Positions 11,902 through 61,097 of a stretch of 64,000 nucleotides of DNA are shown in pieces. The position numbers and the translations under genes are program-made. The DNA is from Malus domestica (taxonomy: Eukaryota > Streptophyta > Magnoliopsida > Rosales > Rosaceae), in NCBI RefSeq assembly GCF_042453785.1, contig NC_091668.1, positions 29,885,501 to 29,949,500 on the forward strand, in the 5' to 3' direction. How positions within the stretch are numbered: position 1 is the first letter of the stretch; each line of letters opens with the position of its first letter. The notes beneath the pieces are model-generated. The model was not told the DNA's origin. It saw only the letters and a program-made list of their open reading frames with translations, and ran no database searches.

Positions 11902-14767
11902 ATGTTCTCCTCCGTCCGATCTCTCTCCCTCCCCCTCCTCTTCGTCTTCTTCCTCCTCGCCCCCGCTTTCGCCGCCGAGGCAGATCACAAGGTAAAATTA
12001 TCCCCCCCCCCTGCCCCGCCCGCCTTCTCTCTCTTCAATTGCGTTGCCCAAACCCTAACATTTGCTCTCTCAGTAAATCCCGGTAGATCTCTATGTTTGT
12101 CCTTTTAAACTTTGAATTCCGATTCAGATCTGTATTTTCTACGGCTTGTTATCATGTAACTGTGTAAGCATGTGTATGTGTTTGTTAGGGTTAGATCTTA
12201 ACTGGGTTTTGCTTGTTGGTCGGATTGTTGCTGTTTTTGTCTTATGGGTACCTACGATAGCGCTTGTAGTGGTGAATTGGGACTTGCAATGGTGATTTTA
12301 CCATAGGGTTTTGGTATTATGTTAATGGGGTCCAGGGGCCTCAAGGATATCGATGACGAAATTTGTGTGTGCTGGGTTTTATGCTTGGATTTTACCGTAT
12401 ATTTATGCATATATGCTTCGTTTAGCAGAACAAAAGACATCAAACTTATCGAAAGTGCAGATCTTGGAACTTGAAAACTACTTTGTACAGATAGCTAATA
12501 TCACTACGTATCCATAACACTGAAATGACATCTGAATCGGATCCACCACCACCAAAAACTGGTTGCAAGTCCATCTGCCATTGTAACACAAGAAGCTTGC
12601 CTTGCATTAACAAAAAATACTTTATGAGTGCTAATGTACTGTCCATATATTCATAAGTCAGGTACCCGTTCAATGAACCCATTGATCCTCAACCTAGGTA
12701 ATTTCAAAGGACACTTAGTTTGAGGCATCCTAATGCTCTAATGAAGCATTTACAGGTGTGGCTGGCTGCCTTGACTTGTAGATGTAAAAGATGATAGCCT
12801 GAAGCCTTTTTCTATAATAGTCACATGTCAACTAGAATTTCACATACACTGTCATTCTGTCATCAATTTTTTTAATCTAACAGCAAACCATTTTGTTAGT
12901 TCTAAGTTCACACTTTCCTGCACTGCTATGATAATAATTGTATTGGATTGATCAATGCTTGATCTAATTCTAAATTATCTGTAAATATTCTAATGCTCCC
13001 TTGCTTTCGTTTGCAGTATCAAACAGAAGAATCAGTTACCCTTTGGGTGAATAAAGTTGGGCCCTACAATAATCCTCAAGAAACATACAATTACTACAGT
13101 CTTCCTTTCTGTCATCAATCTGAAAATGCTGCTCACAAATGGGGTGGCCTTGGTGAAGTCCTGGGTGGAAATGAGTTGATTGATAGCCAGATTGAAATAA
13201 AATTTCAAAGCATGTGGACTTCCTTGCTCTGCGTTAATTTTTGTTGCTGGATTGAGGTATTTGATTGCAAATTGATTTGTTTCATTTCTCTATGCAGAAA
13301 ATGTGGACAGGGCCACCATTTGCCAACTTGAACTTGACGATCAAAAGGTTAAACAATTCAAGGACGCAATCGAGAATAACTACTGGTTTGAATTTTTCAT
13401 GGGTATGTTTTCGATAAAATTATTTAATACGATATGTATACATGGTATAAATATTGGTTTAGATCAAATTGAAGTATGGTGTTTCGAGATGCATATGAAG
13501 TTTCTGTTGGAAGTCCTGAGTTAACATTCCAAAACACTTATGGACTGTTGATTTACACAGTTTGTACTATTTTTGGTATATAGCATGTATTTTATTTTCT
13601 CTGGGGAAGTCAGTGGCCTGTTGGGGACTACAAGGCCTGCAATTCAGCGTAGTTACTGGAGAATGTTGTGGAAATAATGAAAGATGAATCGTACATATCT
13701 AGTGCATCGGAGAGGGATGTAGGAAGCAAAAGATTAGGGCAGAGTTATCGTTAAATCAATATTATGAACATTTCTTGTGCTTATGTTTGGACTACAGTAT
13801 AGCTGATGCCATAAAATTATTTACTTAGATGTTTCCTTAGTCATAAAAGTTAATTAAGCATCATATTGTGACTTACATGGTTGTCTATGTCTCATGAGCT
13901 ACTTTCTAATTGTTGCCAAGATCAATATTACTTTACAAGAAACTTGATTTTTAACTACAAGAATTTTGTGTTAATTACATTTTCATGTACAGTATAATGT
14001 CAGTATCGACTTAGGAAATGCTTGAAATTATCTGAAAGTGGTTTTACTGTGTGTTAATCTGGATCTCTGTGGGGATCTACTGCAAGGGTTTATTTTCTCT
14101 ATGTTTTGTGGTCAATTTGTTTTATATGGGGGCATTCACTGATCCTGTATTTTGTCTCTTTAACATATTATCTCCCCTGGACGTTGCTGTGCTGGATACA
14201 TATTCAGATGATCTCCCTTTATGGGGTATGCGGTATACTCATTCCTCCCAATTTGAGCTCACGCTTGTATTATCCTCTTATTAAATTGGTCTTCGTCTTC
14301 TTATGATGTCCTAGGCTTTGTTGGTGAGTTGCAGCAGGACAAGAACAGTGGAAATGGCAAGCATGTCCTTTACACTCATAAAAATATCATTGTTAAATAC
14401 AATAATGATCAGGTTTGTGATTCTCCATATCAGATGTGGCTTTTATAATGGGCTTGAGGTTCTATGATTTTTATTGTAGTTTATAAATTTGTAGATCATT
14501 CATGTGAATCTCACTCAAGATAGTCCAAAGCCGTTGGAAGTAGGGAAGAAATTGGATCTAACATACTCTGTCAAATGGATTGCAACCACTGTCACCTTTG
14601 CACGTCGATTTGATGTCTATTTGGACTACCCCTTCTTTGAGCACCAAGTAAGAACTGACTGTTTATTTGTTTACCTATTTTTCTTTCTGGCATTGAAGGC
14701 GTATTATCCTAAATTCAGTAGAATTATGTCTTCAAGGTATTTTAACATTGGTTGCTTAATGATGCTA

Positions 14768-31862: not shown

Positions 31863-32319
31863 GATTTTTTTTCTATACTTATGTATTTTACTTGAGCAAT
31901 CAAATTTCAAATTGGAGACCAAACGATAAATTGACTTTTTTTGTCCAAAATTGTCTTCAAGATAGTGATAATCTCTCATTTTAATTATTGAAAATAAAAA
32001 TTAATAAAACTGTTTTTTTAGTTTGTCTATAGTAAGATTTTTTAGTTATTTCGTAAAAAAATTATCAATATTCTTGTTAAGTAGAGTAGCCGGTTTGACA
32101 AAATTATCGCTAAAAAGACGGTCACATAAACTTTTACGTAACAGTTTAATAAGAATATTAACAAATCCTACCGAATAACCAAAATGATCAGAATCACTTC
32201 GATCAGTTTTCACTCAATGACCATAAAACCCTTTGGGTCTCCCCTTCACTAATTGTAGTGAGCCCTCTCTTCTCTTCTCTAAAACCCCGAAAACTCCGGA
32301 ACTCTTCAAAACCCTAGCC

Positions 32320-34837
32320 ATGGCGCTGAGCTCTCTCCGCCTCCGCCGAACCCTAAGCGGTCTCTCCACCCTCCACCGCTCCCTCTCTGCAACCTCCGCA
32401 CTCTCAGCTCCACACTCCTTTTCCTCTCCTCTGCTTCCTGCCTCCACGTCCGAAAAGTTCCCTGTGCTGCCGCCACAGTCCTGGACGCTCCTCCTCCAGT
32501 CTCGGACGTTCAGGTCGTCGCCGTTCTCTTCCGCGCGACCGACTTCGTACGGAAACGACCCAAAGGACGAGATTGGCCCGAATACGGTACTGTTCGAAGG
32601 GTGTGACTACAACCACTGGCTGATCGTCATGGATTACCCGTGGGACAACAAGCCTCCGGCTGAGGAGATGATCAGGAATTATGAGGAGACTTGTGCTAAA
32701 GGCTTGAACATCAGGTCACGCATCTTTCCTCTCTCTCCATTTTTATGTATATGCTTATGAAGGTATGCTTTGATTCGACGATATGTTTGGTTACTGAGAA
32801 AATCAGACGGAAAATCACTACTGTGAACGAAAATGGTAATTTTGAACCTAGCAATATATTCGAGAATCTCCTTCGAATGCTAGGACGCTTAAAATACAAA
32901 TACATTGCAAGGGTCGCTGTAGTATTTATTAGCACTTCCCGATTCAAGTCCAACAGTAGCTTGATGGTTTACTTCTGTGTTCGAGGTGGACCATAACGAG
33001 TCCCTGTAGAAAGTATTCACCTTTGGTGGGTCTGAGAAAGATAAAGCACCTATTAGTCCCGCTCTGGTAATAATTTCGGGATTAAACAAAAACCGAAAGG
33101 TTTGTTGGTGTAATCGCCTCTAATTTACCCTTAAAAGGAACTAATAAGATGTTACAGTGTCTTGCCTGTGAAATGTATTACCTCATAGTTCCACTATCGA
33201 ATTTGGTTGATGATATGATACCAATTCTTTTCTATATTCATCGTCTATTGAATGTAATTCTAACTTGTCTACTATACATATATTATTGGCTATATATGTT
33301 GCTCATCAACCATTTGCTGGATGTGATTATGTCAACGCTACTAGTTTCTATGACATGTTTCTCGGGTAGCTTTATGCTTGCAGCGGTCTTGTATGCATTG
33401 GATTTTTCTTCTCATAAGTATTTTTGTGAATCAGTATGGAAGAGGCAAAAAAGAAGATATATGCTTGTAGCACTACAACATATACAGGCTTTCAGGTTGA
33501 GATGTCTGAGGAAGAGTCACAGAAGTTCGAAGGTAAGTTTTGGATAGCATTCTGTGTTACCATTGAAAATGATAGTCTTGAACCCCGACAATAACTTTTC
33601 CATTCAATTTTAACAGGTTTACCTGGAGTAGTTTTTGTGTTGCCGGATTCTTACATTGATCCACAGAACAAGGAATATGGAGGTAGGATGCAATGATCGT
33701 TTTCTTTGAGAATAGTGGGTAGCAATTTATCAGCTGATTCAACTTAAGTTGTTTTGGATTGTAGACTTGTAAAACAAATGAGCTAGTCCATCCATATCTA
33801 CCATTTTAATTCAATTTAAATTGTTTTCTGTAAATATCAGGAGACAAATACATTAATGGTACAATCATACCAAGACCACCTCCAGTTCAGTATGGAAGGC
33901 AGCAGGGCGGAAGATTCCGTGACAATAACAGGAACCGTGACCAACAAAGATATGATCAGCAACGACCATCATATAATCCGCAAGGTAACCCCTCCTATAA
34001 TCAACAGGGTCCTATGCGAGGTGGAGGGAACTATTCGGCATCACAAAATTATCCACAACAAAATTATAGCTCACCAAGACAAGGAGAGAACACAGGTCCT
34101 ATTCCAGTGAATACCGCTGGAGGGAAGGATGCATACCAGCCAGGTGGAGAACCAGTACCTTCATATCAGGGCAATTACAACCAAGGAGGGCAGCAAAGTT
34201 ATCGTCCCCAAGAACAAAGGAACTTCCCACAAGGAGATCAGAGGAATTATGCCCCTCCTGGTCAGCAGGGATTTAGGGGAGATAACAGGAATTATGGTCC
34301 CCCACATTCTGATACTGATGAGCAACGTTTGAGTGGATTTCAAGGCCAGGGAACACCTGGAGCTTATGCGCAAGGACCGAGCTCTGGAACTTATGCGCAA
34401 GGACCGAGCTCTGGAGCTTACGGGCAAGGACCGAGCTCTGGAGCTTACGGCCAAGGACCGAGCTCTGGAGCTTACGGCCAAGGACCGAGCTCTGGAGCTT
34501 ACGGCCAAGGACCGAGCTCTGGAGCTTACGGCCAAGGACCGAGCTCTGCAGCTTACGGCCAAGGACCGAGTTCTGGACCTTATGGCCAAGGAACGGCATC
34601 TGGTAATGGGCAGGGATACCCTGCACATGGAGGAGATGAGAGGTTCCAACAAAGTAACTCTGCACCCATGGGGCACACAGGGATTGACCAAGTAAGATAT
34701 CCAATGTTTAGTAACTAGATGAATTTTAACTCGCGGAGTATGATTACAATTTTGCGGATGAGATGAGAAAATGATGGAATTTTCTAGAAATTTAGGTAGC
34801 TCATGGTGGTTGGTTTTTGCAGGGGAAAAATTATTAG
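32320..34837 (+). CDS. MORF1: MORF/RIP organellar RNA-editing factor (MORF1-like, DAG domain)
   Basis: A component of plant organellar editosomes: it binds PPR proteins and is needed for C-to-U editing of mitochondrial (possibly also plastid) transcripts. Exons: 32320-32714, 33435-33532, 33617-33682, 33841-34691, 34823-34837; the sum is 1425 nt, 474 aa. The N-terminus is Ser/Arg/Leu-rich, a typical targeting peptide. The MORF domain follows: [27 protein letters not shown], then [39 protein letters not shown] and [15 protein letters not shown]. The C-terminal half is Gln/Gly/Tyr/Pro-rich with nine GAYGQGPSS-like repeats. If the last donor (CAA/GTAAGA) is unused, the frame ends at 34718 with VRYPMFSN instead of the five-codon last exon. 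Assignment to MORF1 rather than MORF8 rests on the long Gly/Gln/Pro tail. Confidence 0.92.
34359..34601 (+). repeat. 27-bp coding minisatellite, nine units, in MORF exon 4
   Basis: Units encode [18 protein letters not shown], five [18 protein letters not shown] and GPYGQGTAS. The central copies are almost base-identical, implying recent amplification. Because 27 is a multiple of three, other frames and the opposite strand are also open here, giving spurious long ORFs. Confidence 0.95.
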
Positions 34838-35969: not shown

Positions 35970-38900
35970 TCAATCTTTCGCTGCATTACTTACCTGAAGA
36001 GTCATTTTTATGTTCATTGACGCCAACTCTGCAGCTAAATATCTGAAGACATAGGGCATTGCAACTGTTTCCATCCCTTTACTTGTCTTACAAGCATGGC
36101 AGATGACCTTCTTGGGAGCTCTTACAGACGGAATTCCTGAAACCGCACGCCCAACCCGTTTTGGTTGGATGAATGTGGACGTTAGGATGCTTCCACATAT
36201 GGAACATACATCGGCAATGTGATAATCAGAACAGGTATGAAGCCTGTCGTGCAACAGATATGCTGCCCCATGCGCAAGCATGGAGTCGCGCTCCATTTCA
36301 CCAAAACGTATGCCACCACCTCGCTTTCGTCCTTTGATAGGCTGGCGAGTGACCTGGTCTACCGTTCCAGTGGAGCGAACCTGCACACCAAATTGGAGTA
36401 CCACATGTAAGGCAACCAATGATAAAAAAAATAGGACTCTTGAGAAAATCTTGAAAGCTCATCTAGTTATAAAATTTGAATTTGGTTGAATCTTAACCTG
36501 AAATTTGTCTGAAACCATATGTCGTAGTCGTTGATAATAAACAGGGCCAATAAAGATCTCGCACGTGAGTTCTGTGCCATAAACCCCGCTGTACAGAACT
36601 TCTACACCATGGTAGTTAAACCCTTTAACCTTTAACATTTCACCAAGTTCGTCAACAAGGGTTTTGGATTTTGGTCCAGTCTCTCCATTAGCATTCTTTG
36701 AACTAGCAAATGGAGTCGCGTCAACATAGTTTCCATGTAAGCTACCGCCCTGCCACAAAGAAACATGCCGGCATCTTTCATAGTTTCCTTTCATTGCATC
36801 AGAATGCAAAACTATGCCCATACTAAAGATGTAGTAAAAATAAAATTCTTTAGAATCAAGTACCTTTGCAGCAACTGATTCCAACAGCATAGCTATTGTC
36901 ATTCTAGAAGGAAATGCATGGGGATTGATGATTAGATCTGGACGCATGCCCGTAACCCCAGAAAATGGCATATCAATATCAGGCCACAACTGGGAGCAAA
37001 CACCTTTTTGCCCATGCCGGCTGCTAAATTTATCACCAATGATGGGGTTTCTAGTGTGTCGAAAGCGTATGTTTGCCTACTCAAAACGAAAATAAAAATA
37101 AGTAAAATAAAGGGTAATATAGGAAATGAAAGCTGGCACAAGAACGGTATAATATTCTTCATATGGAGGAACCAAAGTAAAGGTTGTCCACTTACCTTCT
37201 GGAGGAGTTTCTTCCCATCAATAGCAACGTAGTCAACTATAACAGGTTCTGTACCTTTCCGTTTGACGGCTCTGGGCTTATGAAGAGTGTCATTCGTAAA
37301 GCTATAATATTCTTCATATGGTTTTATTGTCTGAAAAGTAACAAAGAATGAAGTAAGTACATAATTGCAAGCACATATGTATTATATATACTACATTTAT
37401 ATTGGATGAGATTTTAGGCTTCAACTCTCGGGCTTTGAACTTCGAAAAAACCCAAAAGTAATGAACTAAAATCTAAGAAAAACTTGTACTTCCAGTCCGT
37501 CAACTGGCCAGAGGCCGCATTAGGACAAAATCCAACCATTAAGTCAGTTGACTGGCCAGAAGCTTGCATCTGGACAAAATATCACAACAACAGTTGCACT
37601 GCCGTGATCCCAACAATCGGGGTTCAACATAATGCAGAAGATAATATAGAGCAGAAAATAAATCCAGAAATGAATGCTAACCTGACCAACATGAGGAAGA
37701 CCATCTGAATCAATCAAAGGATTTTTATCGACGTTACTTTTCTTAAAATATGTTGGGGTGTTATCCGACCTCTTCTTTTGATCAGACAAGTCAATTGTTT
37801 CTGTCTGCCAAAACCCATCATTTGGTAAGGGTGGGTATTTAGGTCCAAGAAGAAGAAAACCATATGCATTAGTAACGACATTAATTTGGTATACAAAAAC
37901 ATTAAAGAATAAAAGAAAAACACCCCGTTAAAAATGACTTTCAACATACAATAAGAAACAAGAGTAAATTCATGTATTCAAAATGCATTTGGCCAAATGA
38001 ATACAAGATTTGCTAAAGATTCCATCAAGAACAAAATCTCCCTCACTTTGTCTGGGACCTGCAGGATGATTATTTAGAAATTTTGGTCTGGATTCCAATT
38101 TATTAATATGAATAAAGTACCAAGCTGCGTGGAATTTCAGTGCATATTCTTATAATTTGTAATACGACTTTGAGGCTGGACTCATATTTCTTGAAACGAG
38201 CTATACAGGAAAGCTAAAGAAAAAGATCCAACAATACATAAACTCTATTTTGTAAAAAATTCTAAAAAAAAAAGTGACCAATATTAAAAAGCATTGCATT
38301 AGACCTCTAACAATACAAAAGAAAAAACAAGTGCTCTAGTATACTGAGCTCAAGAAGCACCAGTGTAAAATTAATAAAAAGCAGATCACAAGGGGGGGAA
38401 AAACAAAGTTGTTTCATCCAATATTATTTATTTATCTATTTTTATACTAAAGCAGCATCATGTGATATTGCAAGAAGAAACCTGATATATATGCCCATGA
38501 AACATTCCGCGTTCGACAGATGACTTATTTAGAATCATGGCATCCTCCATATCATATCTATATATCATAAGAAGAAAAGGAGAAATATTAATAAATTCTA
38601 AAAGAAAACAAAGCAAACAACAATATATAGGCTTTATGTATCTAAGTTTCTCACCCAGTATATGACAGTACAGCAACGATCGCATTTGTGCCTGTTGGGT
38701 ATTCATCGATGCAGTACTTCTTATATGCACTTGTGCGTACAATAGGGGACTGAGGAGTCTGGGAATGCCCCATTTTTCAACGTAACAATGAACAGTTAGC
38801 ACAAAAAAAGGATAAAAACACATGATGAAATGAAGGGACAATAATAATGAAGTCCATTTAAATAAGAGAATTTGTCGCTTCTACGGCAATATTAGATCAC

Positions 38901-41900
38901 ATGCCTCCCTAGCACAAATGCTGACTAAAATGGATCCACCATGGACAAACATTCATCAAAACAACATCAAGAGAAATACTACACAGTTCCAGCTTCATGT
39001 TGTGTCAATAAATTGGAAATATGAAAAAATAAAATACTTGGTGGGGAATAACTACTAAGAACTTTTAATTAGAGAACAAAAATCCACCCAAATGCTAATC
39101 AGTAATCCAAAAAACCCTATCTTAATGGACTGGTACTTAAAAAGTTGTATAAAGTGTTCCAGGAAAAGCTTTTCATAATTTATTTCCTTGATCCCTGCTA
39201 CAGAATAACAAGATTACAAAGAGAACCAACCTGAAGATGGTACAACTTTTGATCTGCACGATTGCAAAGTCCTTGCAAAGAGAAGGCCATTGTTTGTTTT
39301 GCCATCTACAGTTCAAACAGCAACGATATTCAATAAAATTTAGCAGTAGGATTCCAAAAATTTATACAAGATAAAACTTTTGTTGAACAATCACCAAGGA
39401 CAGACAGGAGGGTAAAACAGAAGAGAACCTGGCACTGATACATATTTCGTGGGCTCTGATTATGATCCGACCAGGGTGTAAGATTAGCGACCACACTGAG
39501 CATTCCAGTTGGATGAATTTCTTCATGAGTGGCTGGGAAACCATCTTTCCTTCCACCATCTCGACCATCAGGACATCTTATTTCCATGAAAACCTAATAT
39601 CACACAGAGAAACCAGATAGTCATACTTTTAGGGTCTGATCATAATAAGCACCTGATGATCAAAGCAGAAAAATGAAAGTTACTCAAATCAATATTTATC
39701 TGGTACCCCATCTAAAAATCACAAAAAGAAAATAAAAATGAAAAGTAACAAGTAACAAAGCATAACTACTTGTCTTCTTGTAAAACGATAATTCTTATCA
39801 CGGCAGCAAATGTAATCTTGGACGGCAGCAAATGTAATCAGAGTAAAAAAATTATTAAAAGAAAAACCATATTTACCTGTTCAAAGGGTCCAATAAGTTC
39901 AATATTCTGACCTTCAATGGAAGGAATTGAAATATTCTTTACTGGCCGAACAAATCTAGAAGGGATAGTGAAAAGGTACAGACCAGGATATGCTCCACCC
40001 ATGCTTAACGGAACATATCCCACTTCCAGATCCTCAGGAATCTGAGACATCGTTTCAGCAACAATGTCAAGGATTGATATTAGAAAGAAAAGCTAGGCTA
40101 AAAAACGAGAAAGGAAAAGACAAATAGAGGGCAAAAACAAACCACTGGAGCAGCTGACACTTTCAGCCTCCTTAAATGAGCCACAACTTTCTCAACTTTA
40201 CTGGAAGATATAGAACCAACAACACAGCCATCTAACAAAACAGAAAAAGCCGCAGGAGGACCAGCTTGAACCAGATTTGGCTTTGAAGTCTTCATTCCAA
40301 CTGCACTCAGAACACTTAGAATAGACTCTCGGATCTTTGAGAAGTCTCTAATATTTCCTTGAGCATCAAAGAAGGATGTAATTCCTGTATTGAATAAGAT
40401 GGAATAATTGGTTATTGGGTATCACATCCAAGACGAGTGTGGCAATAAATAAGACATTTGGGAAATAAAAGGCACAGCACTAATAAACATCCGCATGAGG
40501 CAAAATATTTTCTCTAGCTTCTAAGTCTGACATTACTCAGTAATGTATCCCTGATATTTGTTAACAGCACCTTAATGTCATCAGTAGTGCTGGCACCAGT
40601 CTAACCTTCCTCCTGGATATGTATTTTAAAATAATAAAAGCAATCACTCTTACGTAACTCTTCATGATCAAATTTCACGATACATCTTTATTCAATTTGC
40701 CAGTATAAGTTGCACGACAGCCATAAGCTCTTTCAACTCTTTTTTCCCAGTTGTCGGAAGCGTTTATCTGAAAGCATTCCCAAACAGGCCTTTTACTTCA
40801 AAATTTCTTATTTCTTTCTATTCGTTTCAGATGGTAAAGGGTACTTTTGTGATTTCCAAATTTTCTGGAGTGGAGAAATAATCCGTGTGTAACCTGTATT
40901 TCTTGGACCTTGTTTGTTAGAGAGGATTTGCTTGGATAGGACTATTGACTATATTGAAGGCATTTTGAAGGAAAAAACTTTCATAGTTTGTCCAAGTTGA
41001 AGGTTAGAAAAGATATCCCTACTAATCCTGAAAAAATGGTAGGATTAAAAGGGACAACTTTTCTCCATGAATAACCTTCAACTGGACAAAATAAGGAAAT
41101 TGTCATCTATTTCTTCCTTCAAAATGCCTTCAATACAGTCAATAGTGCTACCCAAGCCAATCCTCTTTAACAAACGAGGTCTTAGAAGTTTTATTTTGTT
41201 ATCAAGGTATTTATAGAGTTCTACTTTACCTTTAGTTAGAAGTTCAATTCTTATTATGCTTCTAAAAGGCTTGCCTCAAGGCACGCCTAGGCATCCTCTG
41301 AGGTTGGGCGTGAGGGTTACCGCCTCTGTTTTGAGGGAGTGGGCGGAAGGCGTCACCGGAGCCGCCTAGGCGGGCCTCAGGTTTTTTTTTTTTTTTTTTT
41401 TTTTTAACTCCCAAACCCAAATTTTGGGTAGGGTTTTAACTGCCTCATACCTCTTCCTTGCACTATCGTCTCTCTGCCTTTTTTTCTGATTTTTATTTTT
41501 TTATATAATGGATGTGTGTGTTGTCTGCGTGCATTGTTATATGTGTGCTCATTGTGCTTTTCATCCTCTATTATATATATATATATATGTATATATATGT
41601 ATATATATGTAATATAATATATGTATATATATGTGTGTGTATATATTTATAATATATGTGTGTGCTCAGGGTGATTATTGATTAATAATCTTCTTTTTTT
41701 TAATATAATATATGTGTACGCTCAGTGTATATTTTAAAAAACTTAGGTCCCGTGAGGCAAAGCCTCACGCCTAGGCCGGGCTATCCCTCGGACGCCTCGC
41801 CCACGCCTCACGCTTTTAATACATTGACTTCACCAAAAGTTGTATTGTATTGTAGTTCTTTTGAATCAATAGAAAAAAGTTTCTATAATTCAAACCATAT

Positions 41901-43810
41901 TCGGAGGTCCCCAAATTTAAATGAAAAACAAGAAAAAAACGAAACTTTAAAAAGAATGGCCACAACATGTACTTACTACAAATGTGAGTCATATGATTCA
42001 ACAAGCCACATGGTTCACCATCAGGTGTATGGACAGGGCAAAGAAAACCCCAAGATCTGTAAAGAAAAAAAATAAACATCTAGTCGAACCCAAATTTTAA
42101 TCATGGAATCAACGTCAAAAGATTTTGAGTAACCTGGCAAGCAAATACATACTCAGGTAACAATTTTCGCACACTTGTGGTGCGAAGTCCAGCGAATGAT
42201 GCCCCTCGATGAACAGCACGAAAATGAGATATGAAACGTAAATAGTTAAGCCTCTCTGCCTGAACCGTCAAGCCTGCCCTCTAAAGAATATTTGCATAAC
42301 AAATAAAATCATAAACAAGCATCCCGATAAATCTAAAGATAGCCTACTTGTAAACTTGAATATCATACATGGGATAAGATTCAGATAATAAGAAGTGGCC
42401 ACATTCTGGGCAGGTTTCTTTTATGAGTAGCAAACCTCTTAGTAACAAAATTTATGAAGTGGAAAAGCTCAAGCATAATCAATAAGCCGTACCTGCTGCA
42501 AATCTAGACCAGATTGAGTATTAAGTCTTCCAGTTTTCAACATATTTTCAACGGCTAAACTGATCTGCTTTGCAGGATTTTTATCCATAAGCTTCTTTAC
42601 TTTAGCTACTGCATTATCAGGATGGAAGTGTTAATTCATGAGAGAAAAAAATGCATGTATCTGGTTAGGGCCACAGCTAAAAAGAGAGGGGACAAGAGGA
42701 ATAATTTAATGATTTAATTAAGAAATATTAATAAAAGAAAGAAAACATATACCATTGCAAAAATCAAAGTCCTTATTTTTGTTGATCTCATCTTCAATAA
42801 TCTTTTTTGTCCTCTGCAACCACTCTTCTAGTTTTTCCTAGAAATCATGATAAACACAGTGAACACAACCCTGAACTCAAATGCTTAGAAATTATAACCT
42901 GAGATAATCACATGAGGGTATTAAAATTTAAGATAATTTTCTCCGAATTGAATGTTTATTGGGATAATGGGGATAGAAAACCTACCCTCCAGTTGAAAGA
43001 AAACACAAAAGAGACAAGAAGGGCTTTACAACATCAAACAGCTATGGAAGAAATTGACAATAGAAATGTGATATTCACTGTTATTGTACCATGTAGTTGT
43101 ATTCATTCACTATGAAATAATAGGTTAGGGTAACATATTCTCAGTTATGTTACATGGCACATCAAATAGTAGTAAGATCCAAACAAAAGCATGAATCCCT
43201 CTCCCACAATAACTCAATAGATTATTTAGTAAAAACAATTGGTCAACAACTTAAGGATATCAAATGACTGAATCGATCCCTTTGAACTTTTGGTCGTGGC
43301 TTAATTGCAAGTTAATTAGTAGGGGAAGCATTAGCCTTAGCCACAAAAATATTTTTATTCTAGAACTAACCATTGAATTGCTACATGGTGTTCAGAGACA
43401 TACTACTCTTCTAAGTAAATACTTATCCCGCCACCCTAGACAAGCTTTACAACATAAAATTCTTCAGACATTACTGCAATACACAGAATAGCAGAAAACC
43501 TTGACATTGTGGTCCACATACCAGACACCAAAACATTTATGTTTTCCTCAAGAGTTATCATTATACAAACTACGACAATACCTTAAGATATATTGTAATC
43601 AAATGACCAGGGAGTAGGACTTCATGATTTTGCAAGGAATCTGGGTTGTCCAGCACAGAAGTCTGATCCACAAGTGAAAAAAGTTTCTGCACCATAAATC
43701 TAAAGACACGCAAAGTGTGAGAAATGATGCACAACACTCCCACACACAAGTTTTTTTTTTTTTTTTTGACCAAGGGTGAAATTAGAACACACACACACAT
43801 ATATATATAT

Positions 43811-43856
<46 letters not shown>

Positions 43857-46800
43857 AGCTAACATGAGCAGATTGAATTTGTCATGAGCCTTATTAAGGT
43901 GGACCAATATGTAATTCATTATAACAGCATCCCCAACCTACAAATCAAAACAGTCAGAAATAAGCAGCCTAACAACCCACTCCATTTGTAAAGTAGCCTT
44001 CTTTCCTTAACTCCATTGAAGGACCAAAACGAGTCAAAGTTTGTAGAACATGACTTACAACTGAAGGTCGTTCATTCTCCAATCCACCCATAAGAGGTCG
44101 GAAGTGTTCTCCTAATAACGATAAAAGGAATCAATACAAATGGTTATTATTTTAATCAGATTTGAAAGACAATGATAAGATAAGAGTAAGTACCAATGTG
44201 CTCTAGACATTCATGACGAGTGAAAAGTTTCAAGTCTCTCACTTCATCCAGGATAATTTGTGCCCTCTCACCCACTAGCTGAGTGCCAACAGCCCCTTTT
44301 CCTTTCTCATAGTTCTCGACATAGCAACATGTCAAACACTCATAAATTTCACGATCAGTAGTATCAATGAGAGCCTGTTAAGCATGTTGGCGAAGTTAAC
44401 ATAATCATATATATTACAACATGACAGCTACATCAACGAAGGGGAAAAGGTTCAAAAGAACATAAGGTCCACAAACAGAATAAAACAATGAGGAACAGAT
44501 CATGAGACCACAACACAGATTGGGCCCAAAAGTTTAGTCCTTCACATAACATGAGGACACGTTCATAAGGGATGGAATGTGAATATAACACTACTATGCA
44601 CCAATCAACTGTCAAGCAGAGTAAAACTATTCTACTGAAACATTTTACCATCAATATGATATCCTGTAATCTTTTCAAGTGCAATAAACAAATTCTTTTA
44701 TTTTCGTCCTGAAGAGTTTACTCAGATGGTGATTGGGGACGAGGAGGAATAACTTGACTTTCTTGTGAATCTTTATCAGCAAAAGTGGGTTGGTTATTCT
44801 ATTTGCATTCTCTGCTAGAAAGCATAAGTAAAATAAACTAATATATATACATATATGAACTCTAACATAAAAGTTAATAAAAATTATGAAGAGCATTAGT
44901 TTCTCAAGAAATTGCAAGTACTGAACTCCACCAACGATTTCACTTTAAACTTTTACCCTCCCTCAAAATAAAAATGTTGCGAGATGTGAGAAAGCATTTC
45001 ACAGACAGAAAATGGATCAAGTAATAAAAATATACCTGAGATAAAGTAAAAAATGATCATGAATTAAAAAGTTAGCCTCTATGATCATGATTTAAAAAAG
45101 AATACGTGAAGAGGATTCTTGCTTTTTTATAAAACAAAAAAGGTGTTCTTGTCCAACTAGCTAAGTCTGGATCAAATCTACGCCTACAAAATATAAATCT
45201 TGATTGCTGATCATTAAATTTTAATCAACCTCAAAAGATACAGAAACCAGATGTAACAAGAATCGACAGAAAGAGTGTGTGTGAGAGAGAGAGGATATAC
45301 ACATTATTTTCAAGCACTTTCATCAAAAGTGGAAATATACAGATATCTGTAACTAGTATTTTTCGAAGTACCTTTAAGACAACGCCTACAGGAAGCAAGT
45401 ACTCCCTCCCTTGTATCCTGCAAAAATATTTAATCCATATATAATACATATACATGCCCATTTTAGTTGCCTCTCCAAACAGTAAACCAAAATACTTTGG
45501 TAGTCAGTATTAAATCACTTACCAAAATCCCAGTCTTGCACTTCCATTACGAAGGTAATACAATTTGACAGTTACTGAAGACTGATCTTCTCTTTCACAT
45601 CTGAAATAACAGTAATAGGAAAATCAAAACAAGATAAAACAACATATCCTTTGCACAAAGAAGCTGCTACTGGATCTGGATAATTCCTAACAACTAAAGA
45701 TGGCAATGGTTCTGATTTTATAGTAAAAAAAGGTCGTACCCAGTGCACAAGGCTCCCGCTTTACGCAGGGTCTGGGAGAGGTGAATGTCGGCTAGCCTTA
45801 CCCCCATTTATGGAGAGGCTGCTCCCAAGTCTCGAACCCGAGACCTACCGCTCATGGGCGAAGGCACTTGCCATCGCACCAAGTGCTCAAGTTAACAAAA
45901 AAAATCCCTCATCAATCCACTCGCTATGCTCTAATTGATTAAGAAATTCTTTGGTGCCCTTCTCACATTACCAAGTGTTTTTTTTTCCTCAAAAGTATTG
46001 AGTTTAAAGTGGTTTTCTCTAAAGTCAAATGTTATAAAGGGCTTAAATGCGAATAGCTCCTGATTTTAAACCAAAATCTAACCGAAATTCAATAAGATTC
46101 TGAATGAATCAATCCATTGTAAAACAAACAGCATATGATTTTAACCCATAAAGATGTGCAGAAACAAATAATGTCCCACAAATAATCGAACACCCCCCCC
46201 CCCCCCCACCCAACACACTAAAAGATTCTTTTATTTCTCTCCACCTTCCAGTCACCATGCCACTTTTACTCCCTTAAAAAAATGTAGGCTTCTCACAAAG
46301 TAATGCATTACAAGTTTCTGGAATTACCAACTCAATCTGAACTCCCATTTCTAAAGAATACCCAACTTGACAATGGAGCATTTGAATTGGGGATCTCCTT
46401 TGCACATTACACACCAGTGAGGAGTAACGCTTCACTGTGGTTTCCTCCTTTGCACCATGAATTTGCCTTACCATGAGCAATAACCAAGCAAACACCGTAG
46501 CTTATGATGTATCTTTACCTTCCAAATTGCATGAAATGCCAATCAAAGCTGAAACTTTAACCTTTTCATCCCATTTTTATGAAGAGACTATCATCCATCG
46601 TAATTTAATTTTCATTGACATAGTTGTCGCAATGCCTTGGTAAGAGTTCTGTCCTTTTGTTTTATCCCGTTGGTTTCTGTTTTGTTGTTTCAATAGTTGG
46701 GTATAGGGCAGGGTACACCCTGTCCCCAGTGTTGTTCTCTTTTTAATATATGCATCTCACAAACTAGGACTGACACTATTATTACTAATACTATGTCATG

Positions 46801-48509
46801 AGTTATAAGAGAATAAATCAACCTTATTATAAAACACGCAAGCACACATGTGTAGAGAGAGAACCAAACCTTATTACAACTGCTTTGTCAGTATATCCTT
46901 CCTTTCGATCACGAAATGAATTTCGCACCATACTAGTTGGCTGGAACAACAGGAAAAACAAATTGAGAAAGTTAGCATCCTTCCTCCAAAACTATCTTTG
47001 AGGATTGAAATCCACCATAAATCCTACTGTTAAACTATAGAGAACAGTATCAAGTAGGCTACTGATTAGCTTCCTATTGTAGCAAACGCAAAGTCTTCTC
47101 CCTCCAACACCCACTCCCAATCTAACTTGAATTCAAGACCTCCCCCAATCTATTCATTCTGATTGGGATGCTGTTGCAAAGGAGTTCTGTAAAACAATCA
47201 CCCCCAAGAAAAAAGAAGGTTGGGGAAGAGATGCGCTTTGGCTACAAGGGTGATGGCCTGTCCAAAAATTTGCTGCATTGCATAAGATGAAAATGCTCAC
47301 TTACATAGTTCCGCTTTGGCAATATAACAAGCCGAACCACTCTCTCAAGCCCATTTAAAATGAAGTAACTACAACAAAACAAATGTAGAAAAAGAATTAA
47401 CAAAGCACACAATGTATAGTAAAGACAAATAAAAAACAGAAAGTAAAGATATCGCACATGATGACATGATAAAAAACAAAAGAGAAATCAAAATACTTAC
47501 CCACCCATTTCCGATGCCTCTTCTTTGTAAGAAACTAGCTTTTGGGGAGTAGCACCTCTTAAGTGGCAAAGCTTTGACTGCATTGTACAAACAATGATCA
47601 TTTGCCATCCATCAACAAGAAGACTAAAATGGAAGAGTCAACAAAAGTAAGCATGTTTTGATGAGTTCATACAAATAACAACCAGTTATTGACATCTCGC
47701 AAAAACGTTTCAGGTCAACACTTTATTTTCAGGCTCAAATCCAGCCCTATTCATGATCCCAGATTCCCAAAATCGCTTGAAGGAATATGACTACATTGCA
47801 CGATTTACAAATCACAAACAAATACAAGAGCTGATAAAGTTAAAGAACAAAAAGGAAAGAACACCGACCTGTAGCATGATGGGAAGCTGCCCAAAATTGA
47901 ACTTTTCTCTTATAACAGCTCCACTATCATTATACTTAAAGCAAACTTCTGCCATGAATTTCCCCGTGTAGGAAAGTTTAGCCTGTCTACACTGTTTAAA
48001 CAACAACAACAACAACCCATTAATGCCTATCATGTACACAATCATACCTGTATACAAATACACACATATTTGAGTGTTTGACACTTACTTCAAAAGGCAG
48101 CAGAGGAACTTGCATCATTTTCGACTCTTCCTTATAAGGTCGGTACAACGCAGGGTCACCCAACCAGAGTAAGATAAGTCAAGAACAAACATATCCATTT
48201 CAATACAATAATCAACTAATTTAATCCAAATGGTTAGAGAAAAAAAAGAGCTCAAACAAAACAAATTGCAGATAAAAATGCAAGGAAAATAAAAGAAAGG
48301 ATATTTGTAAGCGTATTGTTGGTGGAAGGGTCGACAATTTCGATGGGCTTGATCTTGCTGAGTAGAACCTCGAGACCCTTAGTGACAAGGTAATCGAATG
48401 ACTCTATGTGGTGGCGGAAGAGCTCACGCACCGCCGCGAAGTCCTCCGCTGCCGCCAATTGCTTCCCGAACATCTTCGTCGGCTTCTCTTCTCTCTCCGA
48501 CGATGTCAT
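35970..48509 (-). CDS. NRPA2: RNA polymerase I second-largest subunit
   Basis: Core catalytic subunit of nucleolar RNA polymerase I, which transcribes the 45S rRNA. Exons in transcript order: 48305-48509, 48089-48168, 47869-47991, 47501-47577, 47305-47368, 46870-46940, 45523-45600, 45372-45417, 44194-44374, 44059-44111, 43864-43937, 43582-43699, 42753-42837, 42493-42608, 42153-42280, 41977-42056, 40143-40384, 39877-40041, 39429-39593, 39231-39305, 38655-38758, 38482-38557, 37682-37804, 37196-37330, 36864-37076, 36498-36749, 35970-36380; total 3540 nt, 1179 aa, the family length. Motifs are [52 protein letters not shown], the hybrid-binding [12 protein letters not shown] near 902-913 and a zinc site with Cys1102, Cys1105, Cys1137 and Cys1140. 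[14 protein letters not shown] and [11 protein letters not shown] mark Pol I rather than Pol II or III. Intron 1 is AT-AC. A donor at 35994/35993 (CAG/GTAAGT) could splice the last exon to an unseen terminus; otherwise it ends SNAAKD. Confidence 0.96.
40901..41186. mobile_element. Foldback MITE in NRPA2 intron 16
   Basis: The element is almost entirely two inverted arms of over 100 bp: the left arm begins TCTTGGACCTTGTTTGTTAG and continues through TATTGAAGGCATTTTGAAGG; the right arm is its imperfect complement ending CAAACGAGGTCTTAGA. A target duplication was not settled. Confidence 0.75.
41262..41820. mobile_element. GC-rich-ended non-autonomous DNA element in NRPA2 intron 16
   Basis: Both ends carry repeated GCCTAGGC / GCCTCACGC / GAGGCGT motifs (left about 41262-41375, right about 41748-41820) in inverted orientation. 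The centre has a T-run (about 41382-41405) and TA/TG microsatellites (41570-41720). Ends of this kind mark a widespread plant DNA-transposon group, probably hAT-related; the family is uncertain. Confidence 0.5.
43783..43855. repeat. Compound (CA)n(TA)n(GA)n microsatellite in NRPA2 intron 11
   Basis: CA, then TA, then about 20 GA units run almost up to the donor of exon 43864-43937. On the transcript strand this is a CT-rich tract a few bases inside the intron's 5' end. Confidence 0.9.
45728..45888 (-). mobile_element. Au-type SINE in NRPA2 intron 6
   Basis: On the minus strand the element begins GAGCACTTGGTGCGATGGCA (A box) with B box GGTTCGAGACTTGGGAGC and ends in CTGGGTACGACC then TTTTTTT. 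The conserved blocks (GGTAAGGCTAGCCGACATTC, GACCCTGCGTAAAGCGGGAG, CCTTGTGCACTGGGTACGAC) are those of the Au SINE family, widespread in flowering plants. No target duplication was resolved. Confidence 0.85.
48169..48304 (-). other. AT-AC (U12-type) intron 1 of NRPA2
   Basis: On the gene strand the 136-nt intron starts ATATCCTTTC, the exact U12 AT-AC donor consensus, and ends TTCTTGACTTATCTTAC. TTCTTGAC fits the U12 branch-site consensus TTCCTTRAC, with the branch A about ten nt from the terminal AC. No GT donor or AG acceptor fits the reading frame. Joining here gives ..NNTLT-I-WLGDP.., matching the ELSIWLENP region I recall from Arabidopsis NRPA2. Confidence 0.92.
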
Positions 48510-50725: not shown

Positions 50726-51695
50726 CATAAATTTTGCTTATGATGGCTTCCCGTTTAAAGAACGATATAGTAGGACTTTTCGGATGCAGCTATGTGTTTT
50801 AGGCCTCAGTTTAGACCAAACACTCTCAATGATTTAATACCAAAATTATCCGAACCTGACTTGACAAATTGTACATTTAGTATGCCTCTTGTGTTGACAT
50901 TGAAAGTCTTTCGTTTTAGTACAATTTATCTTGCTAACTTCTTCCTAGTTTATGTTATTTAGTCACAAACTTGCTCCCTGAAGTATTGAGTATGCTAGCT
51001 AACTAAATGAGAACTTTGAATTGTTTTCAAAGAAACACGAAAACCGTGGTTCTTATTTTTGGCGCAATCAGAAAGCAAAAGTATATTTCTTGCATCTACA
51101 ATATTGATAGTTCAGTTTGTCTAATAATTTACTGGAAAGCTTGATTTTTGAATATTGAGATGGTTCACTTGCTTCTGGTCTTTGATCGAGATCGTTAAGG
51201 TAACATCTATGTGCTTGTCTGTAATGCATTTTACTCTTTTGTAGTTTTCAAACTGTTCGTATGTGTATGAAATATGCGTCTGTGCTGAGGAAATGTTTTG
51301 TCTGATCTAACGGAGTTCTCATTTCCGATATTATCAGGGGACATTCTTGAATCATGCTCCAAAATTGCCTAATTGCTTGATTGTCAAACAGATATGCGGA
51401 CGAGGAAATCATGCTTTAAATTTCCTAGATGCTTGATTATGCTGAAGATTTGTGCTTGTGTATGAGTTTACTGCAGTTCTTGCGCTTTCATTCCAGATGT
51501 GTCGTACTTAAGTCACTAACCGATTCTTTTAGACTCCCGGGAGGAGGAGTTCTCTATTATAAGTTGTTATTCTTACTATTATCTCAGATTTTGATAGATG
51601 ATATAATGGGATACAGTTAGCAATTGTGAGATAACTTTATAGTTGCTAGATAGGAAGCTACAAAATCATTTCCTTTCTCACGTTCACCTGTCAAA

Positions 51696-54600
51696 ATGGG
51701 TAGCGACGGCAGTGAGGATGGGAGTCCTAAAGAACATATTATCTTGCATGGTGAACTGGATTTGTGGATTATAGAAGCTAAAGCTCTTCCAAATATGGAT
51801 TTACCTTCAGAAAGAATGAGACGGTGTTTCACCATGTTTGGGACTTGCTCTACTCCCTTCGGTAATAGGCCAACTAAAACTGCTTCGGGAAAGCAGGCAA
51901 TGATTACAAGTGATCCTTATGTGTCTGTTTGCCTAGCCGGAGCAACTGTTGCTCAAACCAGAATAATTTCAAACTGCGAGAATCCTTCGTGGGAAGAACA
52001 TTTTTGCGTACCTGTTGCTCACCCTGTTGTGAAGGTGGAGTTTCATGTCAAAGATAATGATGTTCTTGGAGCAGAACTTATTGGAGTAGTGGAGATATCT
52101 GTTGATAAAATCATTTCGGGAAAGCCAATTAATGACTGGTTTCCGATTATTGGCAATCATGGGAACTGTTTAAAACCTTTTCCTGAACTGCATGTTTCTA
52201 TTCAGTTTAAGCCAGTTGAAGGTAACCCTTTGTATAAGAATGGTGTTGGCGCTGGGCCCGACTATAAGGGAGTTCCTAATACATATTTTCCCCTTCGCAA
52301 AGGAGGGAGTGTCACTTTATATCAAGATGCTCATGTACCTAACAATATGCTGCCTGAAATTGTACTGGAAGGAGGGAAAATTTTTCAGCAAGGGAAGTGC
52401 TGGGAAGACATATGTCATGCCATCTTGGAAGCTCAGCACCTTATATATATTATAGGCTGGTCAGTGTACCACCGTGTTAAGCTTGTAAGGGAGCCAACAA
52501 GGCCACTACCTTCTGGAGGAGAGCTGGCACTTGGGGAGTTGTTGAAGTACAAGTCACAAGAAGGGATTCGTGTTGTTATGCTGATCTGGGATGATAAAAC
52601 TTCACATGACAAATTATTTTTGAAAACGGTAATTCCATGAGATCTGAAAGTTACAAATATTACATGTTATTACTATTAGAATGCATTTTATTGATGATCG
52701 TTTCAATGCAGGAAGGTGTCATGCAGACCCATGACGAGGAAACCAAAAGGTTTTTCAAACATTCCAGTGTTCATTGTGTTCTTTCTCCTCGTTATGCGAG
52801 CAATAAGCTTAGTATTTTCAAGCAACAGGTATGGAACATCTGCATTTTAGAGCTAAACCCATGTTGTTTACTGGAATGATACATATCCTATAGCGTCGTG
52901 TAATTTCAGTTGCTCATTTAAATGGATTCCTCTAGTCCAGGTTGTGGGAACCCTTTTTACGCATCATCAGAAATGTGTGCTTCTTGACACAGCTTCTGGG
53001 AATAATCGGAAAATAACTGCTTTCATTGGTGGCCTGGATATGTGTGACGGAAGATATGACACTCCGGAGCACAGGCTCTTTAAAGATGTCAACTCAGTCT
53101 TTCAAAATGATATTCATAATCCTACATTCCCTGTAAGTAGCGATATCACCTCTATACAACTATCTACATTCTTGAGATCAATGTATGATATGATATGTAC
53201 TGAAGCAGTTTTCTTTATTCTTTTCTCTCCTTTTCAACTTTGTTACGACACGGAGAAATCTGTGCATTTTTTGCTCAGTAGTGAGCAATACGTGCATTTT
53301 GCCCAACATTGGCCTGCCCCGTTTAAGCTTGAGTTTTGCTATCAGATTATTCTTTATAGTATACTTTTCGCTTCTTTTTTTTTTGTTTTGTTTATATTTA
53401 TGAAGTTACAACCAAGGTTTAATGTATTAATATATTAATCATATCTTTTTGCTACCAGTGATGTTTGGTTCAATCTGCATCTCTTTACTTTTCGACGTCT
53501 TAAGTGGTCTCCTTTTGTTGAAAGTTCAAACAATAAATAAGTATAAATATACGGTTTTGACAGTTCTATTTGTTGTAACAAGTACAGCCTAACGATCATG
53601 GCCCGAGGGAACCATGGCATGATTTACACTGTAAAATTGAGGGTCCTGCTGCATATGATATATTGACAAATTTTGAACAAAGATGGAGAAAGGCAAAAAA
53701 GCGCGACTTCAAGATAAAAAAGGTTACTAATAGGCATGATGATGCCTTGATAAGGCTTGACCGCGTTTCATGGATAGTCTCTCCAACTTCTAATCGTGAT
53801 GGTGAACAAAATGTACGTGTTAGCAGTGAAGAAGATCGTGAGAACTGGCATGTTCAGGTAGGGAAGGAAAAGTTTCAATGATAACAGCTTAATACTGCAA
53901 CTCATTTCAAGGAAACTTTTACACAGATGGTGGTCAGTTTTGACTCTTCTTTGATAGGTATTCAGGTCCATTGACTCAGGATCTGTAAAGGGATTTCCGA
54001 AGGGCGTCCAGGATGCTGAAGCGCAGGTTAGAACTAGGTTTATGTAATTCGTTTATAATCCTCACAGTTTTTTCTCACTTATTTACTTTACCGAAAATTA
54101 GTGTGTTAACCATCTAGTTAATTAGTAGCTTCTAACAGGTTTTTGTTCATTGATCATAAACTGAGAGGTCAAACCCACAAATAAAACCCTTTAATCTGAC
54201 TTTCACTTCTTGCAGAATCTTATTTGTGGAAAGAATTTGAAAATAGATAAGAGCATCCATGTTGCATATATTAAAGCTATACGATCAGCTCAACGCTTTA
54301 TATACATAGAGAATCAGTACTTCGTTGGATCTTCATTCTACTGGCCGTCGTACAAAAATGCAGGTAAGTTACAGCTTAGTTTCTGGTGTTGCCAGGGTTA
54401 CACTTTCGTCAGCTAACATGTTAACAAATACCCTTTGGCTCTCAATTTTGCTCTTTTTCATACTTGCAATATCACCACCACAGGTGCAGATAACTTGATC
54501 CCGATGGAACTGGCCCTAAAAGTTGCCAGCAAAATCAAAGCAAATGAGCGTTTCTCAGTGTATATAGTAGTACCTATGTGGCCAGAGGGTGTCCCAACTG

Positions 54601-57251: not shown

Positions 57252-57325
57252 GACCGCATAGCGCAGTGGATTAGCGCGTCTGACTTCGGATCAGAAGGTC
57301 GTGGGTTCGACTCCCACTGTGGTCG
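57252..57325 (+). tRNA. trnR-TCG: tRNA-Arg, anticodon TCG
   Basis: A complete cloverleaf can be drawn. The acceptor stem GACCGCA pairs with TGTGGTC (one G-T), the D arm is GCGC..GCGC, the anticodon stem TCTGA/TCAGA encloses loop CTTCGGA with anticodon TCG (57296-57298), and the T arm GTGGG/CCCAC encloses loop TTCGACT. The A box TAGCGCAGTGG and B box GGTTCGACTCC are intact. There is no intron and no encoded CCA. A T-rich run (TTTTATTTTTT) just downstream serves as pol III terminator. Decodes CGA. Confidence 0.97.
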
Positions 57326-57711: not shown

Positions 57712-60700
57712 ATGGCTTCAATGGGACAACCCCCGCCGCCGCTGCCTCTTAAGCGGCGGGAGGCTCCTGCAGTATCAAGAGAAGATGATAAAATGATCAT
57801 TACTCCGCTCGGTGCTGGCAATGAAGTCGGCCGCTCTTGCGTGCACATGACCTTCAAAGGGAAAACTGTCATGGTATGCTGCCATTCACACAAATGCGTT
57901 GTTGTTTCTTTTGAGTGTTGGATCTGGATTTAATCTTGTTTACTCTCCTGACTTTGTTTTTTTTCTTGTTTCTTGCACTTGTGGCTGTGTGGCCGCCTTC
58001 GTATGAATGATAGTTTGATTGTGGAATTCACCCTGCTTATTCGGGCATGGCTGCCTTGCCATACTTTGATGAGATTGATCCTTCCACAATTGATGTCCTC
58101 CTCGTAACCCAGTATGTATTTATCGTTGTTTAGAGTTTTTTGTTTTGTTTTATCAATTGATTGATAGTCAACTGACATACAAATTTTGGAGCTTTTGTTG
58201 AAAGCTGTTGCTAAATTATATCAGACATGGCCCGTTGGGTTGAGAAATTTCGTAATTTGTTATGTGTTTACTCTGGTTGAAACTTGAGTGCAATGTACTT
58301 TACCTCTCTTTCGTTCTGTATTTCTTGTTTAGAGTTAGGAGCAATAAATTCTAATAGGAGAGCCGCTTACATGGGATCAAATTTTTCTCTGACTAAAAAA
58401 TGGTTTTTAACATATAAAGTATTAAACATTTTTTGGGGACTATTTCGTGCTTATTTCCTTGATTTTCTTATGAGTTGAAAAGATTGTATCTCATGTCGGA
58501 AAGGTAGCTCAAATACTAAATTTACAGACCTAAATCCTCAATACCACTTTTTTGCAATAAAGAGTTCCCACACCAAAATGATCTAGGACAAACCATAGAT
58601 AGAACAAACCAAGATCTCAGAATAAAGTTTTATCAAGTTGATTTAATGTGCAAAACTGTCCTAATCTTCTGGTTACGATTGTTCATTCAATTATCCTAAT
58701 ATTACGTCATACTTTTTGCTTGCAGCTTTCACTTGGATCATGCTGCATCCCTACCTTACTTTCTTGAGAAGGTTTTCACTTTTTGAATGATTTGTACAAT
58801 AATTTTGTATGTATTATGTTCTCCACGGGACTAATATCTCTGTAACTTTTGATAGACCACATTCAAAGGCCGAGTTTTTATGACTTATGCTACAAAGGCT
58901 ATCTACAAGTTGCTTTTGACGGATTATATAAAAGTGAGCAAAGTTTCAGTTGAAGATATGTTGTTTGATGAGCAAGACATAAATTCCTCGATGGATAAAA
59001 TTGAGGTTTGTTGTTCTCCCATGACTTATGTTTTCATCCCCACCTGTTTTGTCTCCAACATAACCAACCTATCACAGATTTATATTAAATTTGACTTATT
59101 TTGTTCTCGATGATGCAGGTTTGAACTTTGAACCAACCAAACTTCTCCATCACTACTAGAACTATTAGTTTATGTGTCTCATAGGGGTTGTATGTTTAGA
59201 TGCATTTCAGTCGGCATTTTTTTACTTAATTAATATTGCAGGTGGGGACTGGGCGGTTGGTGATATTTGTACTTTGAGTTGATTAATATTTGAGGTCATT
59301 GATGAACTCTCAGTCCTCACCGTTTTTACGTCATTATCCATTTATCCTATTCAGCACACTTAACATGAATACTGTTATTGGATCCTTAATCGTTTAAACT
59401 CAACAAGACATGAATGATATTCTCACGATAATATTAATATTAACAATGCATGATAATTGCAGGTTATTGATTTCCATCAGACAGTAGAGGTTGAGGGCAT
59501 TCGATTTTGGTGCTACACTGCCGGTCATGTCCTTGGTGCTGCCATGTTTATGGTTGATATAGCTGGTGTTAGAGTTCTTTATACTGGAGATTATTCACGT
59601 GAAGAAGACCGGCATCTCCGTGCTGCTGAGACCCCAGAGTTCTCCCCTGATGTGTGCATTATTGAATCCACTTATGGTGTCCAGCACCATCAACCTCGGC
59701 ACATCCGTGAGAAGCGGTTCACTGATGTTATCCACACAACTGTCGCTCAAGGGGGTCGTGTCTTGATTCCTGTATTTGCACTTGGTCGTGCCCAAGAACT
59801 TCTCCTGATCCTTGATGAGTATTGGTCAAACCATCCTGAGCTCCACAATATTCCTATTTATTATGCTTCCCCACTTGCTAAAAGATGTTTGTCTGTATAC
59901 GAGACATACACCCTTTCTATGAACGATAGGATCCGCAATGCGAAGTCAAATCCTTTCATTTTCAAGCACATATCACCACTAAAGAGCATTGAGAATCTCA
60001 AAGATGTAGGTCCATCGGTGGTGATGGCAAGCCCTGGTGGTCTTCAGAGTGGACTGTCAAGGCAGCTCTTCGATAAATGGTGCACTGATAAGAAAAATTC
60101 ATGCGTTATTCCAGGTTATGTGGTAGAAGGGACTCTAGCCAAAACCATCATCAATGAACCAAAAGAGGTAACTAGTATGACTGGACTCTCGGTACCTCTC
60201 AACATGCAGGTGCATTACATTTCATTCTCCGCCCACGCAGACTCTGTTCAGACTAGTGCATTTTTGGAGGAGCTGAGGCCTCCTAACATAATCCTAGTTC
60301 ATGGAGAAGCTAATGAGATGGGAAGGCTAAAACAGAAGCTCGTGACCCAGTTTGCTGATCGGAACACCAAAATCCTGACCCCAAAGAATTGTCAGTCTGT
60401 TGAAATGTATTTTAACTCCCAGAAAATGGCAAAAGCTATTGGAAGGCTTGCTGAGAAGACCCCTGAAGTTGGTGAAAGTGTCAGCGGCTTACTGGTTAAA
60501 AAAGGCTTCAGTTATCAAATAATGGCTTCCGATGATCTTCATGTCTTCTCACAGCTGTCCACAGCAAATGTCACTCAACGGATTACTATTCCATATGCTA
60601 GTGGCTTCACTGTGATAAAGCATCGGCTTAAGCAAATATACAAGAGTGTAGAGTCTTCAGTGGATGAGGAATCTGGAGTGCCAACACTGCAAGTGCATGA

Positions 60701-61097
60701 TCGGGTGACTTTGAAGCAGGATACAGATAAACACATATCACTGCATTGGGCGTCGGATCCTATAAGTGACATGGTGTCAGACTCCGTTGTTGCTCTTATT
60801 CTGAATATCAATCGAGAAGTCCCCAAGGTAATTGTTGAATCAGAGGATATAAAAACTGAGGAAGAGAATGTGAAGAAGGCGGAAAAGGTTATCCATGCAC
60901 TTCTTGTTTCACTTTTTGGCGACGTGAAGCCTGGAGAAAACGGGAAACTAGTGATTAGTGTTGATGGGAATGTGGCGCAGCTTGATAAACAGAGCGGGGA
61001 TGTAGAGAGTGAAAACGAAGGTCTCAAGGAAAGAGTAAAAACAGCATTTCGTCGAATCCAAAGTGCGGTGAAGCCAATCCCTCTCCGTGCAACTTAG
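57712..61097 (+). CDS. CPSF73-I: Cleavage and polyadenylation specificity factor subunit 3-I (CPSF73-I)
   Basis: The zinc-dependent endonuclease that cuts pre-mRNA at the poly(A) site, in the nuclear CPSF complex; metallo-beta-lactamase/beta-CASP family. Coding exons: 57712-57873, 58014-58111, 58726-58771, 58856-59005, 59463-61097; the sum is 2091 nt, 696 aa (Arabidopsis about 693). A 5' UTR intron is likely from a donor near 57473 (CTTAG/GTAAGA) to an acceptor at 57688. The metal-binding HxHxDH is H87-F-H89-L-D91-H92 (split over exons 2 and 3), with further ligands His174 (AGHVLG) and Asp195 (YTGDYS). The beta-CASP part shows [35 protein letters not shown] and VHGEANEM. The large final exon holds most of the protein. 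tRNA-Arg lies just upstream in the same orientation. Confidence 0.97.

Follow-up and report, generated by a model that had tools for sequence, protein, structure and literature searches.

The stretch of apple DNA analysed here (the window, 64,000 nucleotides at C8:29885501-29949500) carries on its minus strand a gene that extends from start to stop codon over 35970..48509 and is modelled with 27 exons encoding 1,179 residues. The exons were placed by hand and introns 2-26 were positioned by eye, with GT-AG borders being sought, so that the count of 25 GT-AG introns out of 25 partly mirrors the way in which the model was built. The predicted protein matches six Pfam families, including Rpb2 domains 1, 2, 3, 6 and 7 and the Pol I specific Rpa2_4 (PF06883). 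Among the best 60 of 80 matches, the best solved one is human RPA2 (E 2.5e-289, residues 22-1173); S. pombe RPA2 (E 3.2e-285) and yeast RPA135 (E 1.1e-277) are found there as well, and the best Pol III sequence (E 3.9e-119) stays far behind these three Pol I sequences. Judged by its predicted protein, which shares its family with human RPA2 (POLR1B) and yeast RPA135 over nearly the full length, the gene is NRPA2, encoding the second-largest subunit of RNA polymerase I and required for plant viability. In a study of Silene, introns of Arabidopsis NRPA2 are named up to number 25 (PMC3704521), a numbering consistent with the 26 introns of the apple model. Elsewhere in the window, all on the plus strand, lie a tRNA gene (57252-57325) and, according to Pfam, a CPSF73-type mRNA 3′-end endonuclease (59457-61094), a C2-domain protein (51654-52637; by eye resembling phospholipase D), a MORF organellar editing factor (32227-32757) and an EMP70 endomembrane protein (12963-13328), while two of the six open frames of the window that were searched against Pfam were without a match.

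Exon 1 of NRPA2 (48305..48509 on the minus strand, counted from the ATG) and exon 2 (48089..48168, minus) are both backed by the gene model and by protein family matches, and they enclose a phase 1 intron of 136 nt (48304..48169, minus) with the features of a U12-type AT-AC intron. Introns of this type have AT-AC or GT-AG ends, a donor close to RTATCCTTT and a branch site near TTCCTTRAY, whose A precedes the end of the intron by about 8-16 nt. The AT-AC ends of intron 1 fit this scheme, its borders being CAA/ATATCCTTTC at the donor and TTCTTGACTTATCTTAC/TCT at the acceptor. Specifically, the 5′ splice site ATATCCTTTC (48295..48304, minus) agrees with the consensus at 8/8 of positions +2 to +9, compared with 1-5/8 in the other 25 NRPA2 introns, and the putative branch site GTTCTTGAC (48178..48186, minus) agrees at 7/9 positions, deviating at the first and third, compared with at most 6/9 elsewhere in the gene. 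The branch A at 48179 is 10 nt before the last base of the intron, which the gene model ends with the terminal AC of the 3′ splice site (48169..48170, minus). Across the join the reading frame is kept in phase 1 (ACA A/TC TGG) and then stays open through the 27 exons. The original prediction had named an AT-AC U12-type intron as the first of NRPA2, and its coordinates proved exact; the donor, the branch A about ten nucleotides before the terminal AC and the restored frame that it described all hold.

Scored against the 25 GT-AG introns of NRPA2, intron 1 has negative U2-type log-odds at its donor (-4.7) as well as at its acceptor (-6.1), and it is the only one of the 26 introns for which both ends are negative, single negative ends being found at the donor of intron 21 (-2.9) and the acceptor of intron 20 (-0.8). 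These scores bear on the reading that intron 1 is a U2-type intron which the major spliceosome removes despite its AT-AC ends. Such introns exist, making up 0.01% of Arabidopsis U2-type introns in Table 2 of PMC7367187, but the perfect U12 donor, the poor U2 donor score and a U12-like branch site so close to the intron end make this reading barely conceivable here.

The snRNAs that would recognise a U12-type intron were searched for in the same genome (651 Mb, 19 contigs), which gave three matches for U12 (two of them over the cut-off), two for U11 and nine for U6atac (all over the cut-off). Pairing was examined for seven of the 14 loci, namely two U12, two U11 and three U6atac. The GAAAGGA of U6atac is complementary to the donor's UCCUUUC at 7/7 positions in two loci and forms six contiguous pairs in the third, and the AAAGGGU of both U11 loci pairs with AUCCUUU of the donor over seven contiguous bases, one of them a wobble; for the other 25 donors, the corresponding registers give 1-6 pairs with U6atac and 1-5 with U11. 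Both U12 loci carry GUAAGGAA; with the A bulged, this would form pairs at 7/8 positions of the branch site, two of which are wobbles. By these matches, the apple genome carries predicted U11, U12 and U6atac genes that are complementary to the donor and the branch site of intron 1. A U12-like copy at C14:8825316-8825462, below the cut-off, keeps the 5′ branch-pairing end and has a poor overall score; it is perhaps a pseudogene.

How often such signals arise by chance was estimated by taking the 212 nt that separate the anchored codons through 20,000 dinucleotide shuffles, with no frame requirement. The full motif set was ATATCCTTT together with a 7/9 branch match in which the A precedes the final base of an AC by 8-16 nt. 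ATATCCTTT alone occurred in 108/20,000 shuffles and the full set in 26/20,000; with the looser RTATCCTT the counts were 316/20,000 for the donor alone and 76/20,000 with branch site and AC. Matches to a similarly loose motif set are not uncommon over the whole window, 60 Markov simulations giving a mean of 0.2 for each 64-kb strand, and therefore it is the place, the frame and the absence of alternatives that carry the weight. RTATCCTT itself is found at nine places in the window on both strands, one of which is 48304. From this donor, further branch matches are available before an AC ending at 47385 in intron 4 (7/9) and before an AG near 47831 in intron 3 (8/9), and the use of either would skip coding exons.

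A more ordinary explanation would be that the major spliceosome splices exon 1 to exon 2 through GT-AG or GC-AG borders elsewhere and that the AT-AC match is a coincidence, to which the window-wide frequency of the loose motif set lends some substance. A script that listed GT/GC-AG pairs whose donor lay 60 nt or more beyond the ATG, whose intron was at least 60 nt long and whose stop-free join led into the frame of exon 2 indeed found 29 in-frame pairs. The highest score among these is 0.5, whereas the other 25 introns, on which the score was trained, reach 10.0-22.1. The acceptors of the 29 pairs are confined to four sites within exon 2, with exon starts at 48130, 48126, 48124 or 48108. Each of the 12 pairs listed out of the 29 either deletes family sequence or adds intron-encoded residues. 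None of the 29 is thus credible, with their poor scores and their acceptors cutting into exon 2, and since the AT-AC set recurs at the site in so few shuffles even before any frame is demanded, coincidence is a very improbable account of intron 1.

The protein family provides a further, less sharp view of the join, which falls at residue 69. Human RPA2 is aligned through it, with the T-I identical and followed by a two-residue gap. The matched stretches of the yeast and S. pombe Pol I subunits start at residues 65 and 86, and the family evidence exactly at the join is therefore weak. The residues directly at this point are weakly conserved. In place of the LTIWLG of NRPA2, human RPC2 has LNIYVG, and a distant paralogue on C14 (below) has TIYLEF. 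Family alignment supports the exon 1/exon 2 join without being decisive.

Taken together, these signals make it highly probable that intron 1, the first to interrupt the coding sequence of NRPA2, is a true U12-type intron of the AT-AC subtype and that it is removed by the minor spliceosome; the removal proposed by the original prediction is well supported by the cis signals, the frame, the lack of a credible GT-AG alternative and the complementary U11, U12 and U6atac genes. In the proposed course of events, U11 and then U6atac would pair with the donor, U12 would pair with the branch site with the branch A bulged, and the minor spliceosome would join 48305 to 48168. Retention of the intron brings a TGA into frame at 48254..48252 (minus) as codon 86, for a product of 85 residues; retaining transcripts would thus terminate early and would probably be decayed, from which it would follow that the NRPA2 protein needs the minor spliceosome.

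Whether another gene could supply the protein was addressed by a genome search with residues 1-308 of NRPA2, which returned 16 matches: eight in the NRPA2 of the window, two on C15, one on C14 and five short ones on C2, C13 and C10. The C15 copy (C15:53510414-53520340) has ACG in place of ATG and a stop in exon 1, and its DNA match stops 20 nt before the exon 1/exon 2 junction. Over 19.5 kb, exon 1 and fragments of exons 9-16 were all that could be recovered; exons 2-8 were not found, and where they are missing there are about 6.6 kb without a match to NRPA2. DNA identity is 83-89% in the stretch with the pieces of exons 9-16 and 75% in the exon 1 stretch. Given the pairing of apple chromosomes 8 and 15, the C15 copy is presumably the genome-duplication partner of NRPA2. 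As this copy is broken and ends before intron 1, one intact NRPA2 copy was found with residues 1-308. The C14 match (C14:2812532-2813197) is a distant second-subunit paralogue with 24.7% identity, Pol III like by eye. At least 721 codons are open at this locus, for which the genome search lists a frame of 1,110 codons and a single TAG within the match, so that this paralogue appears intron-poor, in contrast to the Pol I gene with its 26 introns. The five short fragments on C2, C13 and C10 resemble exon 9 (68-72% over about 30 residues), two of them lying at C2:25365975 and C2:25354571, and are perhaps carried by a mobile element. A search with the first 183 residues gave nine pattern matches in prokaryotic contigs, none of them confirmed, and 0 in viral contigs; as these collections hold prokaryotes and viruses, this says nothing on plants.

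The case for dependence on minor splicing is strengthened by the broken state of the one further NRPA2 copy that was found. The U12-type signals, the poor alternatives, the stop met on retention, the snRNA genes and the single intact copy together imply that full-length NRPA2 from the window gene very probably needs the minor spliceosome, and if RNA confirms the splicing, a dependence of the plant on the minor spliceosome for NRPA2 would follow.

A further reading goes beyond this explanation and does not compete with it, namely that intron 1 is a checkpoint through which Pol I capacity follows minor-spliceosome activity. It may draw on the early stop upon retention and on the single intact copy, as well as on the proposal that the abundance of human U6atac limits genes with minor introns (PMC3728624). 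Nothing, on the other hand, indicates that intron 1 is spliced slowly or limits NRPA2, and a survey of minor introns suggests that neutral processes may explain much of their evolution (PMC10639083), so that we consider the checkpoint unlikely. The tie between rRNA synthesis and U12 splicing capacity proposed by the original prediction goes beyond what the sequence shows, as it would require the splicing of NRPA2 to be limiting, and to see in intron 1 a control point of rRNA synthesis is speculation. The fuller version, in which the decay of the second copy has left a lone NRPA2 whose intron 1 retention makes Pol I supply and rRNA synthesis track minor-spliceosome capacity (by way of U6atac or DROL1-like factors), is likewise unlikely. 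At present, NRPA2 is a housekeeping gene whose intron 1 is an ordinary and well-formed minor intron. Were it confirmed and conserved, it would offer a concrete route from defects of the plant minor spliceosome to growth, through the loss of a Pol I core subunit, and it lends itself to a clean single-intron test, in which the retention of NRPA2 intron 1 is compared with the level of pre-rRNA in plants with lowered minor splicing.

Minor introns are present in many information-processing genes, and those of plants are frequently near the 5′ ends. Against the literature on such introns, their occurrence in a gene for a polymerase subunit comes as no surprise and is to be expected. U12-type introns are well known as a kind, to which NRPA2 adds a host gene. 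The phase and the 5′ location of intron 1 are in line with biases reported for minor introns (PMC10639083), and with plant U12-type AT-AC introns it shares the donor, the branch site, their spacing, the AC end, phase 1 and the 5′ location; no structural difference was seen, and what is of interest is the gene that hosts it. AT-AC introns make up 26% of Arabidopsis U12-type introns in Table 2 of PMC7367187, and in Arabidopsis DROL1 mutants such introns are described as affected (PMC11039992, citing Suzuki 2022). A similar case is that of plant CBP20, a different RNA-related gene with one U12-class intron, the fourth of seven, which is reported as conserved across land plants (PMC5932401). No literature naming NRPA2 with a U12-type intron, or POLR1B with a minor intron, was found by a search that did not extend to supplements, and NRPA2 intron 1 may for this reason well be listed already in U12 intron databases.

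The idea of a structured intron 1 was rejected, its folding being no better than that of shuffles (z -0.58), 56/200 of which fold at least as well. Of the eight further RTATCCTT places in the window, two, at 15012 on the plus strand and 2050 on the minus strand, are putative U12-like donors (ATATCCTT); at both, an AG no more than 1.5 kb away is preceded by an 8/9 branch match, and the upstream frame is open.
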